Shown in pieces: positions 48,014 to 54,908 of a stretch of DNA of 64,000 bases (positions within the stretch are counted from its first letter, which is position 1; each line of letters starts with the position of its first letter). The stretch is from Labilibacter sediminis (lineage in GTDB: Bacteria > Bacteroidota > Bacteroidia > Bacteroidales > Marinilabiliaceae), in assembly GCF_005877885.1 (NCBI RefSeq), contig NZ_VCHY01000016.1, forward strand, positions 62,001 to 126,000. Reading direction: 5' to 3'. A program made the translations under genes and the position numbers. The notes under the pieces were generated by a model. It was not told where the DNA came from. It was given only the letters and a program-made list of their open reading frames with translations, and did no database searches.

Positions 48014-48346
48014 ATGAAGAATTTATTGATCATTGTATGCTTAGGTATTTCAACATTAGTATTTTCCCAAGAGCAAACAAAAAGAGTATACGGACCAAAA
48101 GCTAAAAATGAGCGGGTATGGATAAATAAAGCCAATACAAGCACAGTGGTTACAAACGATAACGAACGCGTTACCGGAGGTGAGGCTAAAAACAACAAGA
48201 CTTGGGCAAAAAATTACAATAAGTCAGAAACTACTGCAGTAACAACCAATGAAGAAAAGAAATCAGTAAAAGGTCCTAATGCCAAAAACTATGTGGTGTA
48301 TAAAAGAAATAACAATACAGATATAAAAGAAGGGCAGGATCAGTAG
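48014..48346 (+). CDS. Small secreted protein with three GPxAKN repeats
   Basis: 110 residues. The signal peptide is MKNLLIIVCLGISTLVFS. The mature part consists of three imperfect repeats of about 28-32 residues starting near 24, 52 and 84, each with Gly-x-x-Ala-Lys-Asn (G27, G55, G87), an aromatic four residues after the Asn (W36, W64, Y95 region) and Asn/Thr-rich VTTNE tails. It is basic and hydrophilic. I recall short Bacteroidota proteins with GPKAKN motifs but no known function. It has its own spacing on both sides, so it is probably monocistronic. Confidence 0.65.
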   Translation: MKNLLIIVCLGISTLVFSQEQTKRVYGPKAKNERVWINKANTSTVVTNDNERVTGGEAKNNKTWAKNYNKSETTAVTTNEEKKSVKGPNAKNYVVYKRNNNTDIKEGQDQ

Positions 48347-48591: not shown

Positions 48592-48642
48592 AAATGTGTT
48601 GTATAACAAAAACATTAATTTCTGCCATATCATTTTTTCTAT

Positions 48643-48650
48643 TAGTTTTG
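48643..48650 (+). promoter_or_regulatory. Possible -7 box before the bioB leader gene
   Basis: TAGTTTTG followed by CATCC fits TAnnTTTG. The -33 position (TTTC, 48619-48622) is weak. Transcription would start almost at the ATG at 48657, giving a nearly leaderless message. Confidence 0.45.
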
Positions 48651-48656
48651 CATCCG

Positions 48657-48980
48657 ATGAATCACAAGCATATACATAAATCACAAGCTCTTGGTAAACT
48701 TCATTTTAAGCAATGGAGCAATAAGGGGTATGCTGCATTTTGCTCAATGGGTAAAGTGGTTCATATTGGTAAATTGGCTGTTTCACTTGCACAGTGGATT
48801 GGGAATATAATAGAGCATGTGGAAGAGAGACTTCTCTTATGTATAGATCGAGATGTAGATGAAACAGCGGAGGAGTTGCTTGAACAAGATATGTTGCAAG
48901 CAATACCTGTAGTCGTGAACACTCAAAAAGGGTGTGGTGCTGAAGTAATTGTAAATAGTAAAAATATAAACTGCCGCTAA
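48657..48980 (+). CDS. Small conserved-looking protein upstream of bioB
   Basis: 107 residues from the ATG at 48657; an in-frame ATG at 48594 would add a hydrophobic 21-residue N-terminus. The motif LGKLHFKQWSNKGYAAFCSMGKVVHIGKLAVSL is distinctive: I recall short Bacteroidota proteins with K/R-W-S-x-K-x-Y-A-x-F-x-S-L-G-K upstream of vitamin-related receptor or biotin genes, but cannot verify that here. The C-terminal part is acidic (EETAEELLEQDM-like) and ends NSKNINCR. Its stop codon is the last part of the 5' arm of a terminator placed right before bioB, so translation of this gene could control bioB transcription. Confidence 0.65.
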   Translation: MNHKHIHKSQALGKLHFKQWSNKGYAAFCSMGKVVHIGKLAVSLAQWIGNIIEHVEERLLLCIDRDVDETAEELLEQDMLQAIPVVVNTQKGCGAEVIVNSKNINCR

Positions 48981-49013
48981 TTGGAGATATTCTCCGGTTA
49001 GCGGCTTTTTTTT
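48973..49013 (+). terminator. Terminator/attenuator between the leader gene and bioB
   Basis: GCCGCTAA (48973-48980) pairs with TTAGCGGC (48998-49005). Inside, TT pairs with GG as wobbles and GGAGA (48983-48987) pairs with TCTCC (48991-48995), giving a continuous 15-bp stem with a TAT loop, followed by eight T. The TAA of the leader gene is in the 5' arm. The bioB ATG lies seven bases past the T-run, leaving no room for a promoter between. Confidence 0.9.
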
Positions 49014-49020
49014 GTTTGTT

Positions 49021-50004
49021 ATGGTAAATGAGTTAAAAAACAAAGTATTGGCAGGTGGTTCTATCACCGAACAGGAAGCCTTGCAATTGATGAATGCTGA
49101 AGATAAAGAAGCTCTTTATTCTGCAGCCAACGAGATTCGCCTTCATTTTAAGGGAAATAAAATGGAAATGTGCAGCATCTTAAATGCAAAATCGGGTAAA
49201 TGTACACAGGATTGTAAATGGTGTTCACAGTCGATGTTTCATAAAACAAATGTAGAAGAGTATGAGTTGGTAGATTTAAAGGTTGCAGAACAGCAAGCCA
49301 AGGAAAATGCTGAAAAAGGCGTGCATAAGTTTTCATTGGTAACAAGCGGCAGATCCATCTCTAATAAAAACCTCGATCAGCTTTGTGGTGTGTATAAAAA
49401 AATTCAAAAAAGCACACCGATCCATCTTTGTGCTTCCATGGGATTATTGAACAGGTCGCAACTTGAAAAGCTTAAGGAATCGGGCGTTGAGCATTATCAC
49501 TGTAATATAGAGACGGCACCTTCTTTCTTCCCAGAGGTGGTTTCTTCGCATTCAATTGAAGAAAAATTCAGAACTATTCGTTATGCTCAGGAATTAGGTA
49601 TGGGTGTTTGTTCCGGTGGAATTATAGGTATGGGCGAAAGCATGGAGCAACGCGTTGAAATGGCTTTTACCTTAAGAGAGTTGGATATTGAGTCTATTCC
49701 AATTAATATTTTAACACCTGTTGAAGGAGCAAGTTTAAAAGTAGACGGGCCGCTAAGTGATGATGAGGTGCTAACGACCTTTGCTTTATTCCGTTTTATT
49801 AACCCAACAGCCAATATCCGTTTGGCGGGTGGACGTAATTTAATTGCTCATATTCAGGATAAGGCCTTGGCTTCCGGGGTAAGTGCTGCTTTGGTAGGAG
49901 ATTATTTAACTACCATTGGTACAAATATTAACCAGGATAAAGAACTTTTTGAAAAGGCAGGTTTTAACCTTGGAGAGCATAAATGTAAACATCAACCCGT
50001 GTAG
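49021..50004 (+). CDS. bioB: Biotin synthase
   Basis: 327 residues from the ATG at 49021. It is a radical-SAM enzyme; Cys61, Cys65 and Cys68 (CTQDCKWC) hold the [4Fe-4S] cluster. HLCASMGLLNRSQLEKLKESGVEHYHCNIETA, CSGGIIGMGESMEQRVEMAF and NPTANIRLAGGRN (Arg near the [2Fe-2S] cluster) are typical of BioB. It inserts sulfur into dethiobiotin, the final step. It is separated from bioA by a 209-base gap with a palindromic repeat. Confidence 0.97.
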   Translation: MVNELKNKVLAGGSITEQEALQLMNAEDKEALYSAANEIRLHFKGNKMEMCSILNAKSGKCTQDCKWCSQSMFHKTNVEEYELVDLKVAEQQAKENAEKGVHKFSLVTSGRSISNKNLDQLCGVYKKIQKSTPIHLCASMGLLNRSQLEKLKESGVEHYHCNIETAPSFFPEVVSSHSIEEKFRTIRYAQELGMGVCSGGIIGMGESMEQRVEMAFTLRELDIESIPINILTPVEGASLKVDGPLSDDEVLTTFALFRFINPTANIRLAGGRNLIAHIQDKALASGVSAALVGDYLTTIGTNINQDKELFEKAGFNLGEHKCKHQPV

Positions 50005-50065
50005 TTGATTTAGTGCTTTAAGTGCTATTTACCCAGGGAAATATCTTTGAAAAGATAATGATATA

Positions 50066-50170
50066 CCACCCCGCCTTTTTGCACCCCTCCTAAAATTCAG
50101 GAGGGGAGTGTGCGGTGTTTTTCTCCTCCTTTTAAAGGAGGAGTACCACGATGAATGAGTGGGGAGGTGG
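50066..50170. repeat. GC-rich composite palindrome inside the biotin cluster
   Basis: Outer arms CCACCCCGCC (50066-50075) and GGGGAGGTGG (50161-50170) are inverted. Inside are two hairpins: CCCCTCCT (50084-50091) with AGGAGGGG (50099-50106), and a 21-base near-perfect palindrome at 50123-50143 (CTCCTCC...GGAGGAG). Similar GC-rich palindromic repeats are familiar in Bacteroidota intergenic regions. Its GC content stands out sharply from the surroundings, which suggests a mobile repeat inserted between bioB and bioA. Confidence 0.85.
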
Positions 50171-50213
50171 TTGCATTATTAAAGAAGATTTCCTTGGCAA
50201 TTTACCAGACAAA

Positions 50214-51509
50214 ATGAACAAACAACAATTATTAGAATACGATAAGGAGCATATATGGCATCCGTATACTTCTACAACAAATCCTTTACCCGTTTATGCT
50301 GTAGAAAAGGCGGAGCGATGCACTATTCATCTGGCTTCCGGAGAGAAACTGGTGGATGGCATGTCGTCGTGGTGGGCTGCCATTCACGGATACAACCATC
50401 CTGTTTTAAACCAGGCGGCCGAAAATCAGCTGCAGCAAATGTCGCATATCATGTTTGGTGGCTTAACGCACCAGCCTGCTGTTGATTTGGCTAAAAAGCT
50501 GGTGGAAATAACACCTGAATCTTTACAAAAAGTATTCTTTTCTGATTCAGGATCAGTATCAGTTGAAGTGGCTTTAAAGATGGCCTTGCAATATTGGTCG
50601 AGCAAAGGTATGCCACAAAAAGGGAAATTTGCCACCATTCGCAATGGTTACCATGGCGATACCTGGCATGCTATGTCTGTGTGCGATCCGGATACGGGGA
50701 TGCATCATATTTTTAATGGTCGATTGCCTATTCATTATTTTGTGGATCAACCTCAATGCAGGTTTGGCGATGAGTGTACCGATGTGGATGTTGCACCATT
50801 AGCTGAGCTCTTTGAAAATCATCATACCGAAATTGCAGCATTTATCCTCGAACCCATTGTTCAGGGTGCCGGAGGAATGTGGTTTTATTCGTCCGGTTAT
50901 TTGAAAAAAGTGAAAGAACTGTGCGATAAATACAATGTATTGCTTATAGCAGATGAAATAGCCACCGGCTTTGGACGAACGGGAGAGTTGTTTGCTTGCA
51001 ACCATGCCCATGTATCCCCGGATATCATGTGTTTGGGGAAAGCCATTACCGGTGGTTATATGAGCTTTGCTGCAACATTGGCAACCAATGAAGTGGCAGA
51101 TACTATTAGTAACGGATCGCCTGGTGTTTTTATGCACGGACCAACCTTTATGGGTAATCCTTTGGCCTGTGCCGTAGCTAATGCCAGTATTGATTTATTG
51201 CTATCGGGTAACTGGCAGCAAAGGGTAAAAGATATAGAGGCACAGCTTATTGCTGAATTGGAGCCTTGCCGTGCCTTGACGATTGTCAACGATGTTCGTT
51301 GTTTAGGAGCCATAGGTGTTGTGGAATTAACCAAGTCGGTGGATATGGCAGTTATTCAAAAGGCATTTGTTGAAAAAGGCGTTTGGGTTCGACCATTTGG
51401 AAAATTGGTTTACCTCATGCCGCCGTTTGTAATTTCTAAGGCAGAGCTGTCAAAACTGTGTAATGCTTTGTTTGAGGTCATCAAAGAAACCATGGAGGAT
51501 ACTTTATGA
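50214..51509 (+). CDS. bioA: Adenosylmethionine-8-amino-7-oxononanoate aminotransferase
   Basis: 431 residues from the ATG at 50214; the in-frame ATG at 50151 starts inside the palindromic repeat and is unlikely. HIWHPYT at the start is the BioA hallmark. [19 protein letters not shown] and the PLP lysine in [17 protein letters not shown] are diagnostic, as is [18 protein letters not shown]. It makes 7,8-diaminopelargonate using SAM as amino donor. It overlaps bioF by four bases (ATGA). Confidence 0.97.
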
Positions 51510-52669
51510 ATTCGTTTGAAGAAACCATCGAAAGACTTCAATCGCAAGGATTGGAGCGATCCTTAAAAGATATTGAATCGGATGTGGGTGGATATTGCCA
51601 TTTTCAGGGTAAAAGGATGTTGAATCTTTCTTCTAATGATTATTTAGGTTTGGCTACCTGTCCGGAGTTAAAGCAGGCGTTTATGCATATGGTTGCTGAC
51701 AATCCTCAATACTTATCGTTTGGCAGTGGTTCGTCTCGTTTATTAACTGGCAATACCAGTATATATTCGCAAACCGAAGAGGCTTTAAAGACTTGGTACG
51801 GGAGTGAGGCAGCTGTGTTTTTTAACAGCGGCTATCATGCCAATTCAGGTATCCTTCCCGCAATAAGCGAGAAAAAGGATTTGATATTATCTGATAAGCT
51901 TTGCCATGCCAGTATTATTGATGGTATTCGATTGAGTACGGCTGATCAGGTTCGGTATCGACATGCGGATTACCAACACCTGGAATCTATTTTAGAAAAA
52001 AAGCGAGATCAATATCAGCATGTATTTATCGTGAGCGAGTCGGTATTTAGTATGGATGGCGATGAGGCAGATTTGAAAAAGCTGGTAGAACTGAAAAAGA
52101 AATTTAAGGCCATATTATATGTTGATGAGGCTCATGCAGTAGGAGCAATGGGACAAACAGGACTAGGCCTGTGCGAGGTACAGGGCGTAACGAAAGATAT
52201 TGATATCATTGTAGGTACCATGGGAAAAGCCATGGCTTCGGTTGGAGCATATGCCATCTTAAATAATACACTTAAGCAGGTTATGGTGAATAAGGTACGC
52301 ACCTTAATATTTACTACGGCTCTGCCAGCTATTAATATGGCGTGGAGCAAGTTTATTATAGAAAGGATGCCCAGGTTTACTGATGTCCGTAAAACACTTA
52401 AGCAGTTGGTAGATAAATGTAATGCCAGCATAGCTGAAATGGGTTTTGCGCCTTCAAACGGATATATCATTCCCATAGTGGTTGGCGACAATCAAGTAGC
52501 TGTGGCCTTGGCTGAGCATCTACAAAAAAAGGGCTTTTTAATATTTCCTATACGTCCGCCAACCGTGCCTAAAGGAACTGCCCGCTTGCGCATTTCATTA
52601 ACGGCCAATCTCCATTTTAACGATATGGATAAGGCAATGAATGAAATTGCTGCTTATCTCAAAAGTTAA
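51506..52669 (+). CDS. bioF: 8-amino-7-oxononanoate synthase
   Basis: 387 residues, alpha-oxoamine synthase family. [23 protein letters not shown], the PLP aspartate in [18 protein letters not shown] and the PLP lysine in [15 protein letters not shown] are clear. It condenses pimeloyl-ACP (or CoA) with alanine. The pathway role fits its neighbours BioG and BioC, which supply the pimeloyl thioester. Confidence 0.95.
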
Positions 52670-52700
52670 AATTGTAACACTAGTGCATAAATCATTACAA

Positions 52701-53369
52701 ATGCAATTTACCTGGATACAACAACATACAAGTAACAAACTCATCATCTTCTTTAATGGTTGGGGCTGCGATCATCATCAGTTTAAACACCTAACAAGCA
52801 AAGGATTTGATGTATTGATGATTTCTGATTACAAGAGTTTAGCTTTGAGTCAGGATATATGTGATGCCATAAAGCAGTATCAGGAAATTGATGTGGTGGC
52901 ATGGTCATATGGAGTATGGATAGCTCAGTATGTTTGCGAGAAAGAAAGTATTCCTGTAAACCTGACTGTGGCCATTAACGGAACAATTAAACCTGTTCAC
53001 GGGCAGTTTGGCATTCCCGAAGCTATTATGTTGGGAACCCTGAAGAATTTATCGGAGAGAAACATTAAAAAGTTTCAGCGCAGAATGGTAGGGGGTAATG
53101 AAGCCTGGAAATCATTTGAGGCTGATAAGTCACAACGTACTTTTGAAGAGTTGCAAGAGGAGTTAGCAGCTTTAGTTAATCACTTTAAGTTAGAATTGAA
53201 CAATACTGATTTTTACCAAAAGGCAGTGGTGGGTTCCGAGGATTTAATTTTTACTTCTGCCAATCAACTTGCTTTTTGGCAGGATAAAGCTGAAGTAAAG
53301 ATTATGGAAGTGCCTCACTTTTGCTTTTATGAATTTTCATGTTGGGATGAATTATTGATGTTATCATGA
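52701..53369 (+). CDS. bioG: BioG-type pimeloyl-ACP methyl ester esterase (DUF452)
   Basis: 222 residues from the ATG at 52701; the 20 codons before it overlap the end of bioF and are unlikely. An alpha/beta hydrolase with LIIFFNGWGCD near the start (oxyanion region), nucleophile Ser69 in AWSYGVWIA and His206 in VPHFCFYEF. The FNGWG and WSxGVW features separate BioG from BioH. It cleaves the methyl ester of pimeloyl-ACP, ending the fatty-acid-like elongation begun by BioC. It overlaps bioC by four bases. Confidence 0.92.
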   Translation: MQFTWIQQHTSNKLIIFFNGWGCDHHQFKHLTSKGFDVLMISDYKSLALSQDICDAIKQYQEIDVVAWSYGVWIAQYVCEKESIPVNLTVAINGTIKPVHGQFGIPEAIMLGTLKNLSERNIKKFQRRMVGGNEAWKSFEADKSQRTFEELQEELAALVNHFKLELNNTDFYQKAVVGSEDLIFTSANQLAFWQDKAEVKIMEVPHFCFYEFSCWDELLMLS

Positions 53370-54151
53370 TGATACAAACAGAAATAGCAAAACACATTGT
53401 AAATAAAGATCTTTTGCAAAAAAGATTCCGTTGTGCCAGTAAAACCTACGATAAACATGCGGTGGTTCAGAAAACCATGGCCGGTGTTTTGGTGGATGTG
53501 GCTCTGAATCATATTCCGAAGAAGCAGAATTCTATGATGGAGTTGGGTTGTGGAACGGGTTTGCTAACGAGAGAAATAACGGAGTGTTTTCAGGCACAGG
53601 ATTATACAGCTAACGATCTGGTACCCGAGGTTGAGGAAAATATCAGGCAGATCATTGGGCAAAAGCAGAATATATCATTTCAATTTCAGCAGGGAGATGC
53701 TGAACGTATTGATATGGGAAATAAGAAGGATGTGATATGGTCTGGTGCAACCATTCAATGGATAGAGGATTTGGATGCTTTTTTTGCCAGAATGCATGCA
53801 TCACTCAATGATCAAGGATATTTGGCTATTTCATCATTTGATATCGATAATTTTTTAGAGGTAAAAGCTATAACAGGTATTGGTATCGATTATAAGCCTA
53901 TGCATGAGGTACTGATGCATGCCGGAAAGTACTTCAGAGTACTCGAAAGCGAATCATGGCATCAGAAATTATGGTTTAAGCAACCCCGCGAAGTGCTCAG
54001 GCATATGCGTTTTACTGGCGTTAATGCTGTATCTGCAACCAAGTGGGGCAAAGCCGATCTGGAGAATTTTAATTTGGATTATGAATCTTTTAAAACTGAG
54101 GAAGGTTATCCTTTAACCTATCATCCCTTTGTTTTGGTATTACAAAAATAA
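53366..54151 (+). CDS. bioC: Malonyl-ACP O-methyltransferase
   Basis: 261 residues. The BioC-type opening LLQKRFRCASKTYDKHAVVQKTMA is followed by SAM motif I MELGCGTGLLTREI, then WSGATIQWIEDLDAFFARMHASLNDQGYLAISSF, where Q-W-I corresponds to the family motif LQWC. It methylates malonyl-ACP so that it can enter fatty-acid elongation. BioC-BioG partnership is well known. The overlap with bioG implies translational coupling. Confidence 0.94.
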   Translation: MMIQTEIAKHIVNKDLLQKRFRCASKTYDKHAVVQKTMAGVLVDVALNHIPKKQNSMMELGCGTGLLTREITECFQAQDYTANDLVPEVEENIRQIIGQKQNISFQFQQGDAERIDMGNKKDVIWSGATIQWIEDLDAFFARMHASLNDQGYLAISSFDIDNFLEVKAITGIGIDYKPMHEVLMHAGKYFRVLESESWHQKLWFKQPREVLRHMRFTGVNAVSATKWGKADLENFNLDYESFKTEEGYPLTYHPFVLVLQK

Positions 54152-54180
54152 CTGTTTAGATATAAAGTCTTATGTCTTTA

Positions 54181-54188
54181 TACTTTTG
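54181..54188 (+). promoter_or_regulatory. Possible internal promoter for bioD
   Basis: TACTTTTG in the 73-base bioC-bioD gap fits the -7 box, with a weak TTTA near -33 (54155-54158). bioD may have a secondary promoter. Confidence 0.3.
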
Positions 54189-54224
54189 TCTTTTATCTGA
54201 ATAGCCACTAAAAATAATAAGCAC

Positions 54225-54908
54225 ATGTCAACCTATTTTATTTCAGCCATAGATACCGATGCGGGTAAAAGTATTGTTACGGGTTTATTGGCTCGTCATC
54301 TTAAAAATAAAGGAGAAGATATTATTACCATGAAGATGGCACAAACAGGCTGCCATGTGTATTCAGAAGATATAGAAACGCATCGGGAAATCATGGGTAT
54401 CCCGATGTCGAAAGCTGATAAGGAAGGGGAAACATGTCCGTATTTATTTAAGTTTCCTGCTTCACCACATTTGGCTGCGGAGATGGAATGTGTGCGTATA
54501 GATGAGGATAAAATTTCATCGACCGTGGAACAGGTGCAAATGCAATATAATCATGTATTGGTTGAAGGAGTAGGTGGTTTAATGGTGCCCATTAATGATG
54601 AGGTGATGGTAGTTGATTTTATTCAGCAGCACCAGTTTCCTGTTATATTGGTCACTTCAGGTAGGTTAGGCTCAATTAATCATACCTTATTATCACTGGA
54701 GGTGATGCAAAAAAGAGGCATTGAGGTGTATGGCGTTATTTATAACCATTATCCTGTCACAGAGCCGGAAATAACAGCTGATTCGGCTAAGGTAATTCAG
54801 TCACACCTAAAGAAGTATTACCCAAAAGCTTTATGGGGAGAGGTACCTTGTATAGAAAACTTAGAAGATATTCCAGAGTTGGAGTTAGGGGAGGTGTGGT
54901 TTAGTTAG
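54225..54908 (+). CDS. bioD: Dethiobiotin synthetase
   Basis: 227 residues. The P-loop is AIDTDAGKSIVTG, the BioD version of GxxxxGK[ST] with Ala for the first Gly. KMAQTGC is the substrate-contacting KPxQTG-type motif, and VLVEGVGGLMVPI with VTSGRLGSINHTLLSLE are diagnostic. It closes the ureido ring from diaminopelargonate, CO2 and ATP. It is the last biotin gene; the repeat after it supplies a terminator-like hairpin. Confidence 0.94.
   Translation: MSTYFISAIDTDAGKSIVTGLLARHLKNKGEDIITMKMAQTGCHVYSEDIETHREIMGIPMSKADKEGETCPYLFKFPASPHLAAEMECVRIDEDKISSTVEQVQMQYNHVLVEGVGGLMVPINDEVMVVDFIQQHQFPVILVTSGRLGSINHTLLSLEVMQKRGIEVYGVIYNHYPVTEPEITADSAKVIQSHLKKYYPKALWGEVPCIENLEDIPELELGEVWFS

Follow-up and report, generated by a model that had tools for sequence, protein, structure and literature searches.

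Introduction

The trp and his attenuators require runs of codons for the end-product amino acid together with an antiterminator, and in TnaC and ErmCL an arrest on the leader favors expression. The BirA regulon places genes for biotin synthesis and biotin uptake under joint control. Promoters of the Bacteroidota carry a -7 box with the consensus TAnnTTTG. TnaC-like peptides sense small molecules on the ribosome, as described in PMC8429421, and SecM, MifM and VemP are named as monitoring substrates in PMC7897499. In a transcriptome of B. thetaiotaomicron, short ORFs in long 5' UTRs were noted to recall attenuator leaders, with BT_4401 given as an example, in passages of PMC7366714 that do not concern biotin genes.

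Here we describe a leader gene directly upstream of bioB in Labilibacter sediminis, a conserved motif in its product, and a family of TonB-dependent receptors that carries the same motif. We found no description of this leader, motif or receptor in the databases and open-licence PMC literature that we searched. Based on comparisons of genomes, we consider it reasonably probable that the leader is a cis-acting nascent-peptide attenuator of biotin genes.

The bioB locus of Labilibacter sediminis

The window, a stretch of 64,000 nucleotides from L. sediminis that was analyzed as a whole, has on its forward strand a leader gene for 107 amino acids (48657-48980), an intrinsic terminator (48973-49013), bioB encoding biotin synthase (49021-50004) and the other biotin genes bioA, bioF, bioG, bioC and bioD (50214-54908). 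BioB was identified with TIGR00433 (385 bits, cut-off 225) and the other genes by Pfam and NCBIfam matches, with bioF at 409.3 bits falling just below the TIGR00858 cut-off of 426.45. The leader frame is open up to a TAA at 48978-48980, and by sequence and folding this stop codon lies within the terminator stem, which has 15 base pairs (5' arm 48973-48987, 3' arm 48991-49005), a 3-nt loop (48988-48990) and a run of eight Ts (49006-49013). The bioB ATG at 49021 is seven bases 3' of the T run. None of 200 shuffled sequences was as stable as the 121-nt stretch that was folded (z = -3.4). The initial annotation of this DNA had placed the leader stop inside a strong terminator directly 5' of bioB, and sequence, ORFs and folding confirm that geometry, with the correction that the TAA does not end the 5' arm but forms pairs 6-8 of the 15, in the middle of the arm.

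There are two in-frame ATGs from which the leader could start, at 48594 (128 amino acids) and at 48657 (107 amino acids). The second is the better start, since nearly all homologues have their nearest ATG 12-17 codons 5' of the motif described below (the exception, L006, has 26 codons), and since a Bacteroidota-type -7 box, TAGTTTTG (48643-48650, forward strand, 14 nt 5' of the leader ATG at 48657), falls between both ATGs. At E <= 1 the leader protein had no match in Pfam or NCBIfam. Its nearest named matches are from Labilibacter marinus and Plebeiobacterium sediminum, and scanning the genome_contigs collection yielded 3 loci. Its predicted structure, built from only 3 sequences, is of low confidence (pLDDT 52).

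We noted two other features around these genes. Upstream of the leader, at 48014-48346, is a gene for a protein of 110 amino acids that begins like a signal peptide and contains a repeated GPxAKN element, for which we found no Pfam or NCBIfam match. The gap of about 200 nt between bioB and bioA (50005-50213) contains G+C-rich inverted repeats, and given that a terminator-like hairpin (-21.8) starts 62 nt past the bioB stop, bioA may have its own control.

The leader and its homologues share a block of 24 residues, F(K/R)xWSRKxYAxFxSLGxxVxIGxL, which in the window reads FKQWSNKGYAAFCSMGKVVHIGKL (48705-48776, forward strand) and was defined in alignments A1-A3, of which A2 has 30 rows and A3 has 62. 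The terminator stem starts 268 nt 3' of the first F of the motif, and this position is kept in relatives. In ten pairwise comparisons among the window and four relatives, the pN of the motif was 0.03-0.26 and the pS 0.53-0.82; pN was also below pS in the C-terminal part of the leader. Across 45 copies of the motif, nearly all synonymous codons of the conserved residues are in use. By these measures, selection acts on the protein sequence of the motif.

Distribution of the motif

A leader search in 61 genomes, the window's own and its relatives, gave matches in 26, and the matches were of two kinds, either short ORFs 5' of a biotin gene, which was bioB in nearly all cases, or the N-terminal ends of TonB-dependent receptors that have about 690 residues. 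In a survey of the order (295 Bacteroidales genomes), the A2 motif matched in 141 genomes, six of which rest solely on a weak match (E 0.002-0.01), and bioB was found in 68. Half of the bioB genomes (34/68, from 18 families by the tool's labels) have a separate short motif ORF 230-515 nt 5' of the bioB match. In two more (G094 and G253) the motif is in one frame with BioB; these are the only BioB fusions of the motif, with the second half of the motif degraded in L056. The remaining 32 of the 68 bioB loci have no motif match within 1 kb upstream, so other control of bioB exists. The genomes of these 32 loci include five with a leader before bioA and one (G051) with a motif-bearing receptor directly upstream of bioB. 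In two loci (L043 in G094:C1 and L042 in G239:C9) the open frames that contain BioB have 851 and 767 amino acids, far beyond the length of BioB, so BioB may be fused to another protein there.

Away from annotated bioB genes there were 18 short-frame matches, of which eight were weak (E 0.002-0.01) and were left out, and ten were strong and were examined by eye. Five of the ten precede bioA (G057, G156, G243, G144 and G325; bioA was recognized by NCBIfam in two of these and by eye in three), one precedes a bioB cut by the end of its contig (G311), three precede receptors (G250, G076 and G316), and one appears to be a decayed receptor (G233). As read from the genomes alone, the motif adjoins or is fused to its target in every case examined, and for all strong matches examined that target is a biotin gene or a member of one receptor family.

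In a search of the phylum (395 genomes), nine genomes had a motif match at E <= 1e-3 and 193 had bioB; the motif and bioB searches scored at most 19-25 candidates per genome, so these counts may include misses. Three of the matching genomes are outside the order, one of them convincing (G594) and two marginal. The convincing case (locus L126) is from the same class, and has a leader and terminator in frame before a receptor, perhaps through lateral transfer.

This distribution bears on whether a specific signal is involved. With the same cis layout and no specific ligand, a general pause or a leader of low efficiency would tie the biotin genes to growth state or to the capacity for translation, and leader translation alone could set readthrough. 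However, a leader of that kind would be expected before other genes as well, while the strong matches examined occur only at biotin genes and one receptor family, and we regard this alternative as rather unlikely.

Leaders, terminators and promoters

Of 58 loci with the motif in a separate leader, 50 have a terminator (43/48 before bioB, 3/5 before bioA and 4/5 before a receptor), compared to 3 of 37 loci where the motif is fused to a receptor or to BioB, and all three of these are in receptor coding sequence and have interrupted T tails. In both counts the stem was required to begin 220-360 nt after the motif; the terminators of the 50 separate-leader loci were found 247-332 nt 3' of it. The T-tail rule misses short T tracts such as those of L051 and L052, and with a laxer T tail the counts become 53 of 58 separate leaders and 10 of 37 fused loci. 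Eight separate leaders fail the terminator rule: L047 (-11.7), L051 and L052 (hairpin with a short T tract), L079 (weak hairpin), and L044, L050, L012 and L078, where the search found no terminator. At L078 (G316) a motif leader is directly followed by a motif-bearing receptor, giving tandem copies of the motif without a clear terminator.

A terminator close to bioB, with its T run beginning within 60 nt of the bioB ATG, is present at 28 of 34 leader loci and 4 of 32 leaderless loci at dG <= -12, and at 29 of 34 and 8 of 32, respectively, at dG <= -9. The initial annotation had held that loci retaining the terminator without the small gene would speak against it, and at dG <= -12 four of the 32 leaderless loci are of this type and 28 are not. 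Two of the four terminators are 72-73 nt past the stop of the upstream gene and one has a poor T tail. The fourth, L084 (G300), is unexplained: a strong terminator about 50 nt 5' of bioB with no recognized leader ORF, which could reflect a diverged leader or other control.

The leader, its stop position and the hairpin are conserved together, as had been suggested, in that a terminator (dG <= -12, within 150 nt of the leader stop) is present in 29 of the 34 leader loci of the order survey, and in none of the 29 does the stop fall short of the stem by more than 13 nt. In other words, the stem starts before the leader stop or no more than 13 nt after it in 29 of 29 terminator-bearing leaders, versus 7 of 30 control genes, which come from 112 genes scanned in the window and seven other stretches with the leader of G122 excluded. 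Leaders are 93-147 codons long, and at some loci the leader frame continues into the next gene. The distance from motif to stem is 253-341 nt in the 29 loci, while that from motif to stop varies over 246-408 nt. Given this spacing to the stem and the wandering stop, what is conserved is the reach of the ribosome to the hairpin and the distance between motif and hairpin. Natural swaps also occur, in which a leader and terminator precede a receptor without the motif (L076 and L114), and in two cases leader and terminator are in one frame with the receptor (L126 of G594, -25.7, and L132 of G255, -21.0).

These data also bear on a possible trans-acting role of the leader protein, as a small biotin regulator or a partner of BioB, with the terminator only setting stoichiometry. 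Protein-level selection on the motif, and the low pN of the C-terminal part, would be in keeping with a functional protein of this type. However, the leader is directly 5' of its target or fused to it in all cases examined, and its frame is tied to the hairpin while its C-terminus varies and may enter the next gene, so we think a trans-acting product unlikely.

Among 36 loci with a leader or a fusion, 28 have a -7 box within 120 nt 5' of the leader ATG, where shuffled sequences give an expectation of 3.0, and the box is not enriched between leader and bioB (3/36, 5.9 expected). In leaderless loci, the box is directly 5' of bioB in 19 of 32 (2.8 expected). The promoter call rests on the -7 box, since the strict pattern of the -33 partner box occurs in one of the 36 loci. 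In 15 of the 36 loci, including the window, the -7 box is only 12-16 nt 5' of the ATG, which may give a leaderless or almost leaderless transcript.

Proposed mechanism

The geometry, its conservation, selection on the coding sequence, the association with biotin genes, and the presence of a terminator with separate leaders and its general absence from fusions are all directly supported. From these we infer an arrest, its ligand and the direction of control. In the attenuator that we propose, a single promoter 5' of the leader would drive both leader and bioB, and the ribosome would make the conserved peptide of about 24 residues early in the leader. If translation is completed, the ribosome would run into the hairpin, given that the leader frame extends to it, and would melt or occlude it, so that polymerase reads into bioB (on). 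If translation is arrested or aborted at or just past the motif, the hairpin would form and transcription would stop (off). The signal for arrest would be sufficient biotin, or a form of biotin, which is the simplest choice for target genes of biotin synthesis and, probably, uptake. With the motif fused to the receptor or to BioB, no terminator would be needed, because the arrest itself would stop synthesis. The sign would thus be common to all formats: arrest means off.

The translation-dependent antitermination of biotin genes that had been proposed from the window sequence alone is supported by this comparison. A second idea put forward at the same time, of a leader product that is itself the sensor of biotin status, is favored, because the motif is defined at the protein level and also occurs in fusions to BioB and to a probable biotin receptor.

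The opposite sign, with arrest in biotin shortage and a stalled ribosome favoring expression, would resemble TnaC and ErmCL. But in the receptor and BioB fusions such an arrest would cut short the synthesis of that very protein, and a ribosome halted where the motif ends would be about 200 nt from the stem, with no alternative RNA fold found that it could favor, which makes this sign very improbable.

Another alternative is a riboswitch whose RNA element overlaps the ORF by chance, and a terminator before a vitamin gene is indeed typical of riboswitches. An Rfam scan of the window at the gathering threshold returned two tRNAs alone, with no match at the leader, and in 29 loci we found no upstream pairing that competes with either arm of the hairpin (mean z -0.05 and -0.35). 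Synonymous codons vary at the conserved residues whereas the amino acids do not, and on this evidence a riboswitch has very little likelihood. We also looked by eye for a conserved run of codons in 15 aligned leaders and found none.

The motif-bearing receptor

The nascent-peptide control that we favor would extend to a family of receptors. In the order survey there were 95 long-frame motif matches, comprising the two BioB fusions, the receptor of G051 and 92 others. Most of the resulting 93 receptor-type frames were defined by frame length and not by annotation; we read 28 of them and all were TonB-dependent-receptor-like. Pfam confirms six receptor genes, four bearing the motif (L034, L039, L104 and L119) and two without it (L076 and L114), and the domains found were only the generic plug and barrel. 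Genomes with a receptor-type match seldom have bioB (5/93, versus 63/202 of those without; Fisher p = 2e-7, although our Fisher tests treat related genomes as independent, which they are not, and some genomes are incomplete). In G122, the receptor is the second gene after bioB. PMC4403557 gives a predicted capacity for biotin synthesis in 96% of its gut Bacteroidetes genomes; with bioB in just 68 of 295 genomes, the present sample of the order is a different and broader set.

The receptor resembles BtuB, with a match to BtuB1 (8blw) over residues 43-676. Two motif-bearing receptors scored 152.4 and 99.6 bits with TIGR01779, far under the cut-off of 599.7 for vitamin B12 receptors. The motif-bearing protein is probably an outer-membrane receptor for biotin, a substrate that we infer. 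Candidate biotin receptors are L034:4402-6456, L104:1244-3310 and L119:3849-5846, mostly in genomes without bioB. At L039, the motif-bearing receptor is followed by a small membrane protein (L039:3632-4144) with a weak, sub-cut-off match to ECF transporters, which could be an inner-membrane partner in uptake, and a second TonB-dependent receptor (L039:1757-3628) comes after the small membrane protein.

In 19 of 20 receptor loci that we read, the motif is close 5' of an apparent signal peptide, the exception being L132. Among six receptor frames of at least 730 amino acids, an in-frame leader is present in two (G594 and G255) and absent from four (G148, G181, G231 and G247; 730-780 amino acids), so the length of a receptor frame does not predict an in-frame leader. 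The position of the motif directly before the apparent signal peptide could suggest an extended signal peptide or targeting tag, with the leader as a relic of a receptor gene, but this is the least credible alternative, since the leaders have no signal-peptide core by eye, the motif also precedes BioB and BioA, which are cytoplasmic enzymes, and receptors without the motif exist (L076 and L114).

The BirA repressor

The biotin ligase of the window's genome has 255 amino acids, and in the 228 amino acids that were scanned the ligase domain alone was over its cut-off. With the BirA DNA-binding model TIGR00122, 28 of the 68 bioB genomes had matches below the cut-off and none had a match above it, and no match was at the ligase. 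Ligases were found in 66 of the 68, and coordinates were compared by eye. The model is a blunt one, exceeding its cut-off in just 2 of the 14 genomes used as controls, and its cut-off by itself is therefore weak evidence. Control by a BirA repressor was set aside for the 68 bioB genomes on the lack of a DNA-binding match at the ligase, subject to this bluntness, and members of the order seem to be without the repressor.

Comparison with known systems

More tentatively, and with somewhat more doubt than confidence, we suggest that the motif is a portable biotin-sensing nascent peptide of about 24 residues that would detect biotin or biotin-loaded ligase in or while leaving the ribosome and arrest translation. 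It would come in two formats, as a remote leader with a terminator about 250-330 nt downstream and as an N-terminal brake on the receptor or BioB, and would replace BirA in much of the order. If true, this would account for biotin regulation in members of the order, which seem to have no BirA repressor, and would bring a vitamin into the small set of signals that act through nascent peptides. It would also be a case of a regulatory peptide that shifts between a leader and the target protein itself, with a terminator kept or missing accordingly, and would suggest which outer-membrane protein serves as biotin receptor where bioB is lacking.

The motif-bearing receptor is BtuB-like (TIGR01779, 152 bits), and differs from BtuB-type receptors in scoring far below 599.7, in carrying the motif of biotin genes and in having biotin as its probable substrate. 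As in the BirA regulon, genes for biotin synthesis and uptake would be controlled together, although here none of the 68 bioB genomes has a BirA DNA-binding match at the ligase. Like SecM, MifM and VemP, the leaders are long proteins 5' of the controlled gene with what would be an arrest function; the targets of those three are protein-localization genes, and the present leaders have no signal peptide by eye.

The locus shares with trp and his attenuation a leader ORF, an intrinsic terminator and a biosynthetic gene. It differs in that the leader is much longer and has a conserved protein sequence, we found no regulatory codon run or competing antiterminator, and the end product is not an amino acid. 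The ligand-sensing arrest peptides (TnaC, SpeFL and ErmCL) are likewise conserved in sequence and encoded by a leader ORF 5' of their target gene, and in them, as proposed here, the fate of the ribosome on the leader sets downstream expression in cis. In contrast to these peptides, the genes that would be controlled here are those of a vitamin, the leader has 93-147 codons with the motif near the start and far from the stop, the ribosome would have to reach the hairpin, and the peptide is also found fused to the N-termini of its targets.
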